Below are positions 51,458-57,064 of a stretch of DNA of 64,000 nucleotides, piece by piece; positions within the stretch are counted from its first letter, which is position 1, and every line of letters begins with the position of its first letter. The stretch is from NCBI RefSeq assembly GCF_007859945.1, contig NZ_SJPQ01000001.1, forward strand, positions 124,001 through 188,000. The letters are read 5' to 3'. Both the position numbers and the translations under genes were made by a program. The stretch comes from Pseudobythopirellula maris. Its GTDB lineage: Bacteria; Planctomycetota; Planctomycetia; Pirellulales; Lacipirellulaceae. The notes beneath the pieces were generated by a model. It had not been told where the DNA came from. It saw nothing but the letters and a program-made list of their open reading frames with translations, and made no database searches.

Positions 51458-52155
51458 TCACGAAGAACGAAGAAGAAGTTTGGCGGTCACAGCGGCGATC
51501 GAGTTTTCATAACCGCTGTCCGAAATCGCTTGCAATTGCTCGCGTATCCAGCCCGCGTCGTAAAGCAGCCAGTTGTTCTCGTCGAAATGCGACCTCAGAC
51601 CGTCGGTATGCGACGCGATGATCTTGCCGGCCGCCAAGCAGAGTTGGACTTTGGGGTTCTTGCGGATCGACTTGGATTCTCGCAATTGCTCCACCAATCT
51701 ACGGAACACCACTTCACGGGTCGTGGGCTCATTGAAAAGCTTGTAGTTCTTAGAGCGGTTTTCGAATTGGTGTAGACGAGCGGGGAAGCGATTGGTGGCG
51801 TGGCGAGGAAGCCGAAGCAGGCAATGCGGTGCATTGTCGATGCAGGCTGACGAAGCCATGACGCCGATCGCGAGCCGAGCGTCTACACCTATGAGCAAAC
51901 CGCTCTAGCGTAGCTACTGGTAGGATCGAATGCCGTGAGCCTCACGCCGGAAGAGTCCAAGTACGACTTGCACTCGACTACTCGCAGAACGTTGTCTCCC
52001 GGTCGATAAGCCACAACGTCGAGCTCCCACCGGGGCGACGAGTGCCTGCCGATCTCTACTTTTTCTGACTTGGTAAGTTTGACATTCAATGAAGTCTGGA
52101 CCCAAAAACCGTCACGCATGAGGATCGTTGCGATGAGCGATTCGAAAGCGTCCAT
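51458..52155 (-). pseudogene. PD-(D/E)XK nuclease-like gene interrupted by a small mobile element
   Basis: Two minus-strand pieces form one gene: residues 1-~75 (52155 down to ~51908) and the rest (~51750 to 51458). The first carries FESLIATILMRDGFWVQT and the nuclease-like core ELDVVAYRPG...VVECKSY (Asp, then ExK). The second begins KNYKLFNEP and contains VQLCLAAGKI and WIREQLQAISDSGYE. Removing the 155 bp 51751-51905 joins them in frame as DPTSSYA-KNYKLF. As it stands the frame runs into a stop at 51889. The core suggests a restriction-endonuclease-like fold; the physiological role is unknown. The gene sits at the 3' end of the KDG kinase group, 40 bp away. Confidence 0.85.
51751..51907. 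mobile_element. MITE-like element with TA target duplication
   Basis: The 28-nt ends 51751-51778 and 51880-51907 are inverted repeats that agree at the outer 10 and inner 10 positions, with an 8-nt unmatched middle. Both ends carry TA at the outside, as expected for duplicated TA target sites of the IS630/Tc1-mariner type. The element without one TA is 155 bp, has no room for a transposase, and breaks the host gene with a frameshift. It would be moved in trans by a transposase elsewhere in the genome. No other copy is evident in this window. Confidence 0.78.
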
Positions 52156-52195: not shown

Positions 52196-53296
<1,101 letters not shown>

Positions 53297-53301
53297 CAGG
53301 A

Positions 53302-53474
53302 ATTCACCACAGAGAACACAGAGTTATCAGCACAGAACTAGACGCGGATCAGCGAGGATGCAGCGGATTGTACGCAGATTCAAGCGTGAGTCGATCCGCC
53401 GCAATCCTGTGAGCCGTAGTGATCCAGGGGCATTTTTATCCTGGCTCCGTGCTCTCTGTGCTCTCAGTGGTTAA
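53302..53474. repeat. intergenic long palindromic repeat A
   Basis: The left arm starts at 53302 (attcaccacagag) and the right arm ends at 53474 with its degenerate reverse complement. Between them lie gatcagcg/ggatgcagcggat-type units. The right arm runs into the stop codon of the aldolase gene. It is the same family as the repeats at 54132-54330 and 55668-55860 but more worn. Confidence 0.7.
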
Positions 53475-54118
53475 TCAAGGCTTTGAGCAAGAGTCACCGC
53501 TTCGCGGACCGCCGCCTCGACCGGGGCGAAGTCGCCGCCCGCGTAGAGCTTGGGGGCGACCATCCAGCTGCCGCCGCAGGCGACGACGCTCGGCAGAGCC
53601 AGGTAGTCCAGAAGGTTGCCGGGACCGACGCCGCCGGTGGGCATGAACTTCACGCCCCCCTCCACCGCCGAGGCGTAGGGGGCGGAGATCGCTTTTAAGG
53701 TCTTCACGCCGCCGAGCGCCTCGGCGGGGAAGAACTTCATCGTGCCGAGACCGCAGTCGAGCGCCGCTTGTAAGTCGGTCGGCGTCGCGACGCCGGGGCA
53801 GACCGGCAGACCGAGTTTCTGGCAGCGCTCGACCACCTTGGGCGAGAAGCCGGGCGAAACGACCATCACGGCGCCGGCGTGCGCGGCGCGGTCGACCTGT
53901 TCGGCGGTGAGCACCGTGCCGGCGATCACCAACAGGTCGCCCCGAGCGGCCATCGTGCGGATCGACTCCTCGGCCGCGGCGGTGCGGAACGTCACCTCGG
54001 CCACCGGCAGCCCGCCGGCGACGAGCGCCGCGGCCAGCGGAGCAGCGTGGGCGGCGTCGTCCAGCGCGATCACCGGGGCGAGCTTGTGGTGGGCGAGCGT
54101 CTCGAAGGGGTTTGGCAT
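53471..54118 (-). CDS. eda: KDPG / 4-hydroxy-2-oxoglutarate aldolase
   Basis: The 215-residue protein has all the key Eda features: VAEVTFRT with the catalytic Glu (~residue 40), the VVSPGFSPKVVE segment, the Schiff-base Lys in TMKFFPAEALGG (~residue 130), and the phosphate-binding MPTGGVGPGN loop. It cleaves KDPG to pyruvate and glyceraldehyde-3-phosphate, the last step of hexuronate or Entner-Doudoroff breakdown. The length is normal. It lies between the KDG kinase and the xylose isomerase, all on the same strand but separated by repeats of about 170-210 bp. Confidence 0.93.
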   Translation of the reverse strand: MPNPFETLAHHKLAPVIALDDAAHAAPLAAALVAGGLPVAEVTFRTAAAEESIRTMAARGDLLVIAGTVLTAEQVDRAAHAGAVMVVSPGFSPKVVERCQKLGLPVCPGVATPTDLQAALDCGLGTMKFFPAEALGGVKTLKAISAPYASAVEGGVKFMPTGGVGPGNLLDYLALPSVVACGGSWMVAPKLYAGGDFAPVEAAVREAVTLAQSLD

Positions 54119-54131
54119 GGCTTAAGGATTT

Positions 54132-54330
54132 ATTCACCACAGAGGCACAGAGAGCACGGAGGAAAGCACGAAGAATGGGACGCGGATGAACGCGGATTGA
54201 AGCGATGAACGCGGATCAGCTTGATTTCTGATCCGCGTCAATCCGCGTCAATTCGCTGAATCCGCGTGCATCCGCGTCCTCTTCTTCTCTCTTATCCGTC
54301 TCCGTGTCCTCTGTGCTCTCTGTGGTGAAT
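54132..54330. repeat. intergenic long palindromic repeat B
   Basis: This is the clearest member: the outer arms 54132-54161 and 54300-54330 (attcaccacagag start and its reverse complement, with one small indel) enclose inner arms rich in gcggat-type units (about 54180-54220) with matching reverse complements (54228-54280). Transcribed, it would fold into one very long hairpin between the xylose isomerase and aldolase genes. It may limit read-through or stabilise the 3' ends of the mRNAs. Confidence 0.8.
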
Positions 54331-54333
54331 TTT

Positions 54334-55644
54334 TCAGAGGTACAGGTTGATGACGTTCTCGAACAGCTCCTGGCGGCCCGAGGTGTTGGGAGCCGCTTCG
54401 CCCTTTTCGAGCATGATCTTGCTCAGCGAGTCGAAGTCGTGCTTGCCCGCTTCGATCTCGGCGCCGATGCCCGAGTCCCAGCTGGCGTAGCGCTCGCGGA
54501 CCATCCCCTCCAGGCGGCCGTCGGCGCGCATGGCGGCGGCGATCTTCAGGCCTCGGGCGAAGGCGTCCATCGAGCCGATGTGGGCGTAGAACAGGTCGAT
54601 CGGCTCGAAGCTCTCGCGGCGCACCTTGGCGTCGAAGTTCACGCCTCCCGGGTTGAGCCCGCCGTACTTCAGGATCGAGTGCATGCACTGCGTCGTGAGG
54701 TAGATGTCGGTGGCGAACTGGTCGGTGTCCCAGCCGAGCAGCAAGTCGCCGGTGTTGGCGTCGATCGAGCCGAGTGCGTCGGCCGCGCCGGCCGCCTCGA
54801 GCTCGTGCTGCATCGTGTGGCCGGCCAGCGTGGCGTGGTTCGTCTCGAGATTGAGCTTGAAGTGGTCCTTCAGGCCGTACTCGCGGAGGAAATTGAGACA
54901 CGCAGCCGTGTCCGAATCGTACTGGTGCTTGGTCGGTTCCTTGGGCTTGGGCTCGATGTAGAACTGCCCGGTGAAACCGATCTTCTTGGCGTAGTCCACG
55001 GCCATGTGCAGGAACTTGGCGAGGTGCTCCTGCTCGCGCTTCATGTCGGTGTTCCACAAGCACTGGTAGCCTTCGCGGCCGCCCCAGAAGGTGTAGCCCT
55101 CGCCGCCCAGCTCGTGGGTGACTTCCATCGCCTTCTTCACCTGGGCGGCGCCGTAGGCGAAGGCCTCGGCGTTGCAGCTCGTGGCGGCGCCGTGCATGAA
55201 CCGCGGGTTCGAGAACAAGTTGGCCGTGCCCCACAACAGCTTCACACCGGTCCGCTGCTGCTCTTCTTTGAAGACCTTCACGACGGCGTCGAAATTGTCG
55301 TGCGACTCCTGCAGCGACTCGCCCTCGGGCGCCACGTCGCGGTCGTGGAACGCGTAGTAGGGGGCGCCGAGCTTCTCGAAGAACTCGAACGCCACGCGGG
55401 CGCGGTTCTCGGCGTTGGCCACGTCATCGACGCCCGACTCCCAAGGCCGCACGGCGGCGCCGGGGCCGAAGGGGTCGCTCCCCTGGCCACGGAACGTGTG
55501 CCAGTAAACGACGCTGAACCGCAAGTGGTCCTTCATCGTCTTGCCTTCAACCACCTCGTTCTCGTCGTAGTAACGGAACGCCAGCGGGTTGTGGCTGTCG
55601 GGGCCCTCGAAAGGGATGCGTTCGATCTCGGGAAAGGCGGGCAT
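54334..55644 (-). CDS. xylA: xylose isomerase
   Basis: The 436-residue protein is a full-length class II xylose isomerase. It shows [10 protein letters not shown] with the catalytic His, WGGREGY, the [14 protein letters not shown] metal-site block, [18 protein letters not shown] and the WDTDQF segment. The active-site Glu, His and Asp ligands for two divalent metals all sit in these motifs. It converts D-xylose to D-xylulose in the cytoplasm. The start at 55644 gives the usual [14 protein letters not shown] opening. With KDG kinase, KDPG aldolase and a nearby GH43 enzyme it suggests catabolism of (glucurono)xylan sugars. No xylulokinase gene is in the window. Confidence 0.95.
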
Positions 55645-55667
55645 GGCTGATGAGATTTTGGAAAGGA

Positions 55668-55860
55668 ATTAGCCGCAGATGAACACGGATGAACGCGGAT
55701 GCGGTCTGGTCGGTTGCGTTCTCTTGGCTGCGTTGGAAAAAGTAGGAAACGAATCTCTGTGCGTTGATAGCGAGAAGAGCGTGCCCCGAATTCGGCGTCC
55801 GCGATCGTCTGCGCTTGTCTGTGGCTAAGTCGTCTGCGGCTGAGTAAGTCTGCGGCTAGA
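55668..55860. repeat. intergenic palindromic repeat C (worn)
   Basis: The left part (tagccgcagat near 55670, then acggatgaacgcgg units) and the right part near 55838-55860 (ctgcggcta) are reverse complements at the ends. The centre has decayed. It fills the gap between the xylose isomerase and oxidoreductase genes. Confidence 0.55.
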
Positions 55861-56710
55861 TCGTGATGCTGGAAAAACCGCCGTCGACCACGATGTTCTG
55901 GCCCGTGACGAACGACGCGGCCCGTGGCGAGGCCAACCACACCACGGCGCCCGCCAGCTCCTCGGCCACGCCGAAGCGGTTCATCGGCGTGTGGCCGATG
56001 ATCGACTCGCTGCGCGGCGTCAGGCTGCCGTCGTCGTTGTAGAGGAGCTTGCGGTTCTGCTCGGCGGGGAAGAAGCCGGGGCTCAGAGCGTTCACCCTTA
56101 CGCCCTTGGTGGCCCACTCGCGCGAGAGGAACTGCGTGAGATTGATCACGGCCGCCTTGGCCGAGGCGTAAGCCGGCACGCGCGACAGCGGCGTGATGCC
56201 GGCCATCGAGGCGATGTTGATCACGCTACCCTTACCCGCCACCACCATCGAGCGGCCGAACACCTGGGCGGGCAGCAGCGTGCCTCCGACTAGGTTGAGG
56301 TCCGATACCGTGCGCCACGCCTCTTCGGGGATGTCGCAAAAATCGGCGCCGGGCGGCAGCGTGGCGTCGGGGTGATTGCCGCCGGCCGCGGCGACGAGCA
56401 CCGTCACCGGGCCGAGTTCGGCGGCGATCGCCTCGTTGGCCTTCTCGAGCGACGAGCGGTCGAGGGCGTCGGCCGCTTGGAACATGGCCTTCGCGCCAAG
56501 CTTCTCGAGCCGGTCGACGGCCGCCGCGCCGCGCTCGGGGTTGCGACCCAAGACGGCCACCTTGGCGCCGAAGGCGGCGAGGGCGTCGGCCATCAGGCCC
56601 CCCAGCGTGCCGGTGCCGCCAATCACGGCGGCCACCTCGCCGTCGAGCGAGAACAGGTCGCGGTTGATCGTGATCGAGGGGGCGGGGCTCGTGGTCATCG
56701 GCTCGGGCAT
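55856..56710 (-). CDS. SDR-family oxidoreductase, mannonate/fructuronate-type
   Basis: The ATG at 56710 (MPEPMTT) is chosen, with ATG 56698 as an alternative; the much longer open frame upstream is non-coding. The 284-residue protein is a classical SDR: GGTGTLGG nucleotide loop (~residues 33-40), the AAAGGNHPD strand with an Asn, the Ser of NIASMAG, and the YASAK Tyr-Lys pair, then RVNALSPGF. The context and the C-terminal FVTGQNIVVDGGFSS fit the D-mannonate oxidoreductase (fructuronate reductase) SDR type that feeds KDG formation. No mannonate dehydratase is seen, so the precise substrate is an inference. Confidence 0.85.
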   Translation of the reverse strand: MPEPMTTSPAPSITINRDLFSLDGEVAAVIGGTGTLGGLMADALAAFGAKVAVLGRNPERGAAAVDRLEKLGAKAMFQAADALDRSSLEKANEAIAAELGPVTVLVAAAGGNHPDATLPPGADFCDIPEEAWRTVSDLNLVGGTLLPAQVFGRSMVVAGKGSVINIASMAGITPLSRVPAYASAKAAVINLTQFLSREWATKGVRVNALSPGFFPAEQNRKLLYNDDGSLTPRSESIIGHTPMNRFGVAEELAGAVVWLASPRAASFVTGQNIVVDGGFSSITI

Positions 56711-57064
56711 CGGTGGCTGTTGGGGCGTTCGTGCTTGTCGGAGAGTAGGAGGACCGCTGCGCGGTCGACGGACGGCGCCGCTGCGGGCGGCCGAGACTGG
56801 CGAGTATAGCCGGGCGGCGGAGCGGGTTGAATGGTCAACCGGCCGGCCTCGGCATCGCCCCTCTAACCGTAACGGCGAAACGAACCCGAGCGTCGTGGCC
56901 GGCGACCGTACGGGACGTTCTCCGATTGCGCAATAGTGTGTCGCGATCAGGGGCCCGAATGCAGTGGGATTGCGGTATCCGGGGACGTTGCTGCAAAAAG
57001 GACAAACTGCCCTCGGAGCTGCTCCTGCAAGGTGAGTGTGGAGTGCGAGGTGACACCTCACTAG
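56711..57064. other. gene-free region upstream of the oxidoreductase
   Basis: About 350 bases without a supported gene. The region is very GC-rich up to about 56860 and then less so. It should contain the promoter of the sugar-acid group (-). Short hairpins near 57037-57060 could end transcripts from either side. Confidence 0.35.

Follow-up and report, generated by a model that had tools for sequence, protein, structure and literature searches.

A probable IS630-type miniature element with a conserved folded core inside a nuclease-like gene of Pseudobythopirellula maris

The element and the gene it interrupts

The window analyzed here is a stretch of 64,000 nucleotides from the planctomycete Pseudobythopirellula maris (contig NZ_SJPQ01000001.1, positions 124,001 to 188,000, forward strand). 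It carries a 157-bp miniature element which lies inside a nuclease-like gene. The original prediction, made from the letters of this DNA alone, described it as a miniature inverted-repeat transposable element (MITE) whose removal restores the gene. The locus is composed of the following features, given in window coordinates.

51458..51752, minus strand: C-terminal part of the interrupted gene, including the TA which completes the junction
51750..51908, no strand: target site TTAG (YTAR; Y, C or T; R, A or G), with T at 51750, TA at 51751-51752 and 51906-51907, and G at 51908; the insert has TA on either side
51751..51907, plus strand: miniature element, 157 bp including both TA, one of about 84 copies, an imperfect hairpin over its full length
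51751..51778, plus strand: left terminal inverted repeat, TAGAGCGG...TAGACG
51803..51857, plus strand: structured core (helix P0, loop A, helix P1, loop B, helix P2, terminal loop), scoring 70.6 bits with the core-only model R2, which was built from 35 sequences including this one
51813..51820, plus strand: 5' side of core loop B, CGAAGCAG, outer C and G paired
51838..51845, plus strand: 3' side of core loop B, CGATGCAG, outer C and G paired
51880..51907, minus strand: right terminal inverted repeat, in minus-strand reading; 42 + 43 genome matches to the right-end pattern
51908..52155, minus strand: N-terminal part of the interrupted gene, residues 1-82; the reading frame continues a few codons into the element and then stops

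The predicted boundaries (51751-51907) and the length of 157 bp proved exact, with a TA at either edge. The TA-flanked inverted ends of 28 nt were also borne out: 24 of 28 positions are equal, and the first 11 and last 10 are identical. The inverted arms span 33 nt at 82%. The end pattern, allowing up to 3 mismatches, has no sites in the window beyond these two, and shuffled sequences are expected to give 0. The element possesses no coding capacity. Its self-folding gave a z of -6.7, which none of 200 shuffles equalled.

Removal of 155 bp, with one TA kept, joins both parts of the gene in a single frame of 180 amino acids (...SSYA-KNYK...), as had been predicted. A scan of 84,980 species genomes identified 8 loci encoding relatives of the restored protein. 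It aligned end to end, through the junction, with all 8 fetched uninterrupted homologues at 47-60% identity, and gaps near the junction were at most 2 residues in each of the 8 alignments. BLASTP of the one pair compared gave 60% identity across 179 residues. Two of the 8 named homologues belong to planctomycetes; the closest ones do not. The element is absent from the gene in all 8, and so the possibility which the prediction had raised against itself, that the element is a fixed internal part of the gene, did not materialize.

The gene family shows a conserved E..D..ECK pattern, which we take to be the PD-(D/E)XK motif. Pfam matched the gene piece in the window to Card1_endonuc (E 0.015) and DUF234 (E 0.029) and the homologues to DUF234 (E 0.0024) and Mrr_cat (E 0.0085), all below the Pfam cut-offs. 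PADLOC returned CARF_PDDEXK and Csx1 at E 0.003-0.05. The family looks like PD-(D/E)XK nucleases, but these matches are weak and the predicted label has only modest support from them. The interrupted gene is most likely inactive because the N-terminal frame stops a few codons inside the element.

Copies, target site and the probable mover

The assembly (5.07 Mb in 6 contigs) was searched for further copies. Similarity search scored 40 of 120 candidate places, and all 40 were copies at 97-100% identity; a further 7 rows matched such places in part or in reverse. Allowing up to 3 mismatches, the end pattern occurred genome-wide 84 times forward and 83 times in reverse (167 ends; reversed control, 0), from which about 84 copies are estimated. 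A lack of other copies, the other outcome which the prediction had named against itself, is thus not the case. Fifty-four distinct copies were studied in full. Fifty-two were 157 bp long, and these diverged from their consensus by 1.5% on average. TA was present at the left end in 53 of the 54 copies and at the right end in 52. A pyrimidine preceded it in 53 of 54 and a purine followed it in 53 of 54, with all four combinations seen; the target is therefore read as YTAR. In the window copy, 2 of 157 positions depart from the consensus, and each of these variants recurs in other copies. With this low divergence, the family in this genome is young.

The ends of the element resemble those of IS630, which is common among related genomes (92 of 117). 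Paired-end search in 30 loci of one IS630 subgroup found TAGAGC, TAGTGC or TAGATC ends in 13, and in the members whose frames were examined (L107, L112, L113, L186) the transposase is divided between two frames. A TAGCG box lies exactly at position 23 in 19 of 38 IS630 ends of these types (16 of 32 when each locus is counted once) and in 0 of 52 other IS630 ends. The same box at the same position was found in 19 of 49 element ends, these being the ends starting with TA among 70 from 35 representatives of the element in other genomes and this one. The closest single end match to the window family is an IS630 of 1024 bp with two overlapping open reading frames (L186, genome G029). Eighteen of 20 bases at its ends are identical to one of the two common right-end types and 17 of 20 to the window copy (by eye). 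By these similarities, the element shares its ends with autonomous IS630 of relatives and not of this genome.

According to the mechanism proposed here, a transposase of the IS630 subgroup whose elements start with TAGAGC, often with the TAGCG box at position 23, would have bound both ends, excised the element and integrated it into a YTAR site with duplication of the TA. The roughly 84 copies would have been produced by such transposition, and the transposase would since have been lost or would lie in an unassembled part. We estimate the probability at about 80% that this is a non-autonomous, TA-targeting mobile element of IS630 type which recently inserted into the nuclease-like gene and broke it. 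A recent TA-targeting MITE insertion, as first predicted, finds support in the many copies, the YTAR target, the uninterrupted homologues and the closeness of the window copy to the consensus.

Several results weigh against this reading. No IS630 transposase was matched in the assembly, which is 96.5% complete, by any of three queries, Pfam DDE_3 (PF13358), NCBIfam IS630 (NF033545) and a subgroup protein. The check for a transposase with the same ends in this genome, which the prediction had asked for, thus came out negative, and its IS630/Tc1-type assignment stands on the end similarity to IS630 of relatives and the YTAR target. No autonomous copy was found either: the 18 apparently unpaired end matches resolved into 16 full copies and 2 truncations (L061, L065), whose open reading frames contain no obvious transposase. 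For these 18 regions an autonomous partner was rejected; the copies studied in full are 54 of about 84. The window family's own ends are TAGACG or TGGACG, without the exact TAGCG box, and because of this its link to IS630 depends on TAGAGCGG and L186. Among the 246 genomes of the order, those with the element are weakly richer in the IS630 subgroup (12 of 28 vs 58 of 218, p 0.08), and the exact end type occurs in one other genome, at a single place with 2 mismatches (G584). The IS630 reading gives no reason for a transposase to need the core described below. Insertion beside a single TA would leave the same sequence as duplication of the TA; the frame is restored with one TA kept, and the homologues are too distant for reading the insertion site at DNA level. 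Over the 54 copies, joined frames of at least 150 codons numbered 22 for removal of 155 bp, 30 for 156 bp and 32 for 157 bp, a comparison that does not favour the 155-bp removal but tests little because most copies lie outside genes. A transposase in the same genome is not required of a MITE, but with none in the assembly and with the weak co-occurrence, the mobiliser is something we infer, as we do the duplication of TA instead of its use.

A structured core shared by elements with different arms

When the whole element was used to search 117 genomes, G024 was the only one besides this genome with full-length matches; other genera and families had short matches at element positions of about 48-118. 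The loci of the short matches were TA-bounded hairpins, mostly 156-167 bp in length (2 of 22 were shortened by the end finder), in which the arms differ and the middle is the same. A covariance model of 13 elements (R1) found the element in 28 of the 246 order genomes, representing 18 of 114 genera. From 86 matches in 58 sources, the best per source was taken and reduced to the 35 representatives with less than 90% mutual identity. Their cores were cut out by a motif filter allowing up to 2 substitutions per half of loop B, which all 35 passed. Information content reached 1.7-1.8 bits in the loop-B motifs; the arms had 0.4-0.9 bits and the outermost positions about 1.0. Judged from these values, the arms have diverged far more than the core across relatives. 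The conservation of the loops is partly ascertainment, because members were found by models that bear the core and by the motif filter; the evidence from pairing is unaffected.

The 35 cores were aligned by MAFFT with no structure supplied, and RNAalifold placed three helices in them, P0, P1 and P2. Loop A is composed of CAAGG..G with.ACGnaG, and loop B of GAAGCA with GATGCA. In 11 of 14 pairs, both sides are changed in some sequence. Pairing held in 95.2% of cells vs 78.6% after shuffling, with 65 double changes vs 12.6 and a covariation of 0.466 vs 0.150. Slid controls were much lower, at most 43.6% paired. Helix P1 occurs as GACC/GGTC, GTCC/GGAC, GGCC/GGCC, AGCC/GGCT, GTGC/GCAC, CGGC/GCCG and AGGC/GCCT, and one of its pairs is broken in 7 of 35 sequences. 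In 24 of 35 sequences one core pair is G-U; leaving this pair aside, there are 10 G-U and 10 A-C cells, which gives no signal for RNA or DNA or for either strand.

Comparison of the 52 copies of 157 bp in this genome gave a similar pattern. Of 57 core sites, none carried a variant common to at least two copies, compared with 15 of 100 sites in the arms (p 0.001), and this difference suggests that the core was kept constant while the source copies multiplied. Single-copy variants amounted to 0.11 per site in the core and 0.18 in the arms. Three distant core-bearing elements (L154, L156, L158) have ends of another type (TAGGTTCTGTCTGAAAA-like, clear in L154), which suggests that element ends were exchanged or replaced over time.

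The core was also traced through the phylum. A strict sequence pattern was present in 6 of 392 phylum genomes, all within the order. At E<=0.01 the model R2, whose E-values are rough, matched 45 of 343 phylum genomes, compared with a chance expectation of 3 or 4. At E<=1e-5 it matched 25, of which 18 belong to other classes, 6 to the order and 1 to the remainder of the class. Loci were obtained from 30 of the genomes, and all 24 cores outside the order, none of which had been used to build R2, were aligned. This alignment was made by R2 and leans towards its structure, and within it 97.6% of cells paired vs 72.7% after shuffling, with 76 double changes vs 23.8. Further pair types showed a weaker excess (27 vs 22.6, reached by 10 of 500 shuffles). 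Five of the 24 (L216-L220) have genome E-values above 1e-5, and L216, L217 and L218 are possibly false. Hairpins plainly bounded by TA were seen outside the order at L203, L207, L209 and L213, and nearly so at L211, with ends ranging from TAGAGC to TACCGC; at L194, L208 and L212 the hairpin ends were assessed from one side. In these alignments, compensatory changes preserve the fold of the core across the phylum, and it is the arms and ends that diverge.

Two of the loci (L204 and L205, in genomes G303 and G358) carry the loop-B motifs swapped between strands, with GATG.AG first and GAAGCAG second, and intact helices.

No exact core pattern was found in viral contigs and no blastn match to the whole element in plasmids. 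Rfam gave only MIR1144 for window positions 51600-52050, at 13 bits against a cut-off of 90, and no match in 10 element loci. In the open PMC literature, searched for core strings, planctomycete MITEs or palindromes, Rhodopirellula repeats and TA-targeting MITEs, no title dealt with this core.

A conserved core with changed ends is unusual among such short mobile elements. The usual view of short non-autonomous elements is one of two ends with filler between them; in this element it is the filler that is conserved most, and compensatory changes hold its fold in many families of one phylum. We tentatively propose, as a reading that may well prove incorrect, that the core is an independent module, a folded site in single-stranded DNA or RNA with putative protein recognition via the two internal loops, which would be needed for multiplication. 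The ends would have changed or been exchanged while the core stayed, and the lineage would be defined by its core and use IS630 enzymes opportunistically, as an undescribed class spanning the phylum. A core acting in transposition would amount to a novel type of cis requirement, and one acting on the host would make this a widespread mobile structured element. In both cases, the way in which such elements spread without an enzyme of their own can be put to the test, with a 55-nt module delimited and candidate transposases named.

Placement of the copies, alternative readings and known systems

Genes around the copies were called by a home-made caller based on codon usage, and YTAR sites from the window and the flanks of the copies served as controls. 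Only 4 of 54 copies were inside called genes, compared with 268 of 474 control sites (p 5e-13). Judged by eye, three of these four (L006, L022, L115) probably precede the likely start codon, which leaves the window copy as the one clear case of gene disruption in the set of 54. Convergent neighbours outnumbered divergent ones by 22 to 3, vs 28 to 39 in controls (p 6e-5), and 69 of the facing gene ends are 3' and 31 are 5'. Tandem neighbours showed no orientation bias (14 vs 11). Among the 50 copies outside genes, 12 lie in a stop codon, vs 20 of 206 controls (p 0.015). Such insertions should do no harm, because the TAG carried by each element end remakes the stop.

This placement between gene ends would fit a core that serves the host as an RNA element, be it a terminator, a stabiliser or a cleavage site, one that the MITE would have spread and that would be retained through its use by neighbouring genes. 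For ERIC and Correia elements, effects on mRNA are reported or proposed in PMC2229807. We regard this as unlikely. The core is not its own reverse complement, yet no strand preference towards incoming genes was observed (36 reading into the element from the left, 33 from the right), the core has no Rfam family, and avoidance of genes and promoters explains the placement without any function. The absence of strand bias, the slow change within the genome and the location inside such hairpins wherever readable favour a role serving the element over one in neighbouring mRNA. The core is thus probably a structure which the element needs in cis, for spread or for host tolerance, and not one for the neighbouring genes.

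Y1 (HUH) enzymes bind folds resembling such a core with conserved unpaired loops. By this analogy, the element could be a single-strand hairpin moved by a Y1 tyrosine transposase, as REP/REPIN are by RAYTs, with the internal loops as recognition site. Y1_Tnp genes are present in 177 of the 246 order genomes, with 4 matches in this one, and R. baltica is described in a 2013 paper (PMC3733652) as having many tyrosine transposase genes with flanking repeats. We nevertheless consider this improbable. The core model gave only 2 weak matches in 30 Y1_Tnp loci (best 16.9 bits), and 20 larger Y1 regions of element-bearing genomes yielded a known copy and four weak matches of at most 20.7 bits, the strongest of which reads as coding DNA. 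Presence of Y1 genes is not associated with the element (23 of 28 element genomes vs 154 of 218 others, p 0.27), and the TA at both ends, the paired inverted ends and the YTAR preference fit IS630.

One Y1_Tnp match of this genome (G000:C1:990360-990704, in L268) is situated about 2.2 kb from an element copy.

That the element is an ordinary decayed MITE with only apparent core conservation, owing to recent ancestry, horizontal spread or core-based finding, is very improbable: the copies here are young and the collection models and motif filter contain loop B, which partly ascertains the loops, but representatives below 90% identity change both helix sides, which neither filter demands, these compensatory changes recur outside the order and survive in the RNAalifold fold on the plain MAFFT alignment, and arm divergence is far above core divergence.

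In an ordinary MITE the ends are kept and the middle is lost. The element reported here shares with IS630-type MITEs the lack of coding capacity, the inverted ends, many near-identical copies and insertion at TA. It departs from the textbook MITE because its middle is conserved and its ends are not. Decay of the middle from a parent insertion sequence is a usual property of MITEs and not a strict requirement; carriage of the core by IS630 elements was rejected, with 0 matches in 60 IS630 loci (some overlapping).

ERIC/IRU elements of enterobacteria are palindromic. RUP, Correia and ERIC are the closest in kind to this element. RUP (repeat unit of pneumococcus; 107 bp, 108 copies) has inverted ends similar to IS630, a TA target and intergenic location as here, and its proposed mover is IS630-Spn1 (PMC2229807). 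The account of RUP in that paper reports no functional motif, in contrast to the phylum-wide structured core here, and no IS630 was found in the present genome. Correia/NEMIS of Neisseria has a 155-bp form, TA termini and an almost exclusively intergenic location; its middle contains an IHF site, a protein-binding DNA site, and the element is reported from Neisseria (PMC2229807), whereas here a fold is supported by compensatory changes over many families. ERIC/IRU, of 127 bp, is also multi-copy with TA termini, but occurs in other hosts with another sequence, and the account in PMC2229807 describes no slow core with fast ends. The GTAG/CGTC-tagged REPs and TIRtrons, also reported from Planctomycetes (PMC3733652), are palindromic and multi-copy as well; they have 20-40 bp and tagged ends, the GTAG type being linked to tyrosine transposases, whereas this element has 157 bp, TA ends and no link to a Y1 gene in the loci and regions searched. 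A term search of the 2024 review PMC10969869 finds neither Planctomycetes nor IS630 in it.

The interrupted gene adjoins a cluster for sugar-acid catabolism at 52196-57061 on the minus strand, which comprises a sugar kinase, a KDPG aldolase (TIGR01182), a xylose isomerase (TIGR02630) and a D-mannonate oxidoreductase-like SDR.
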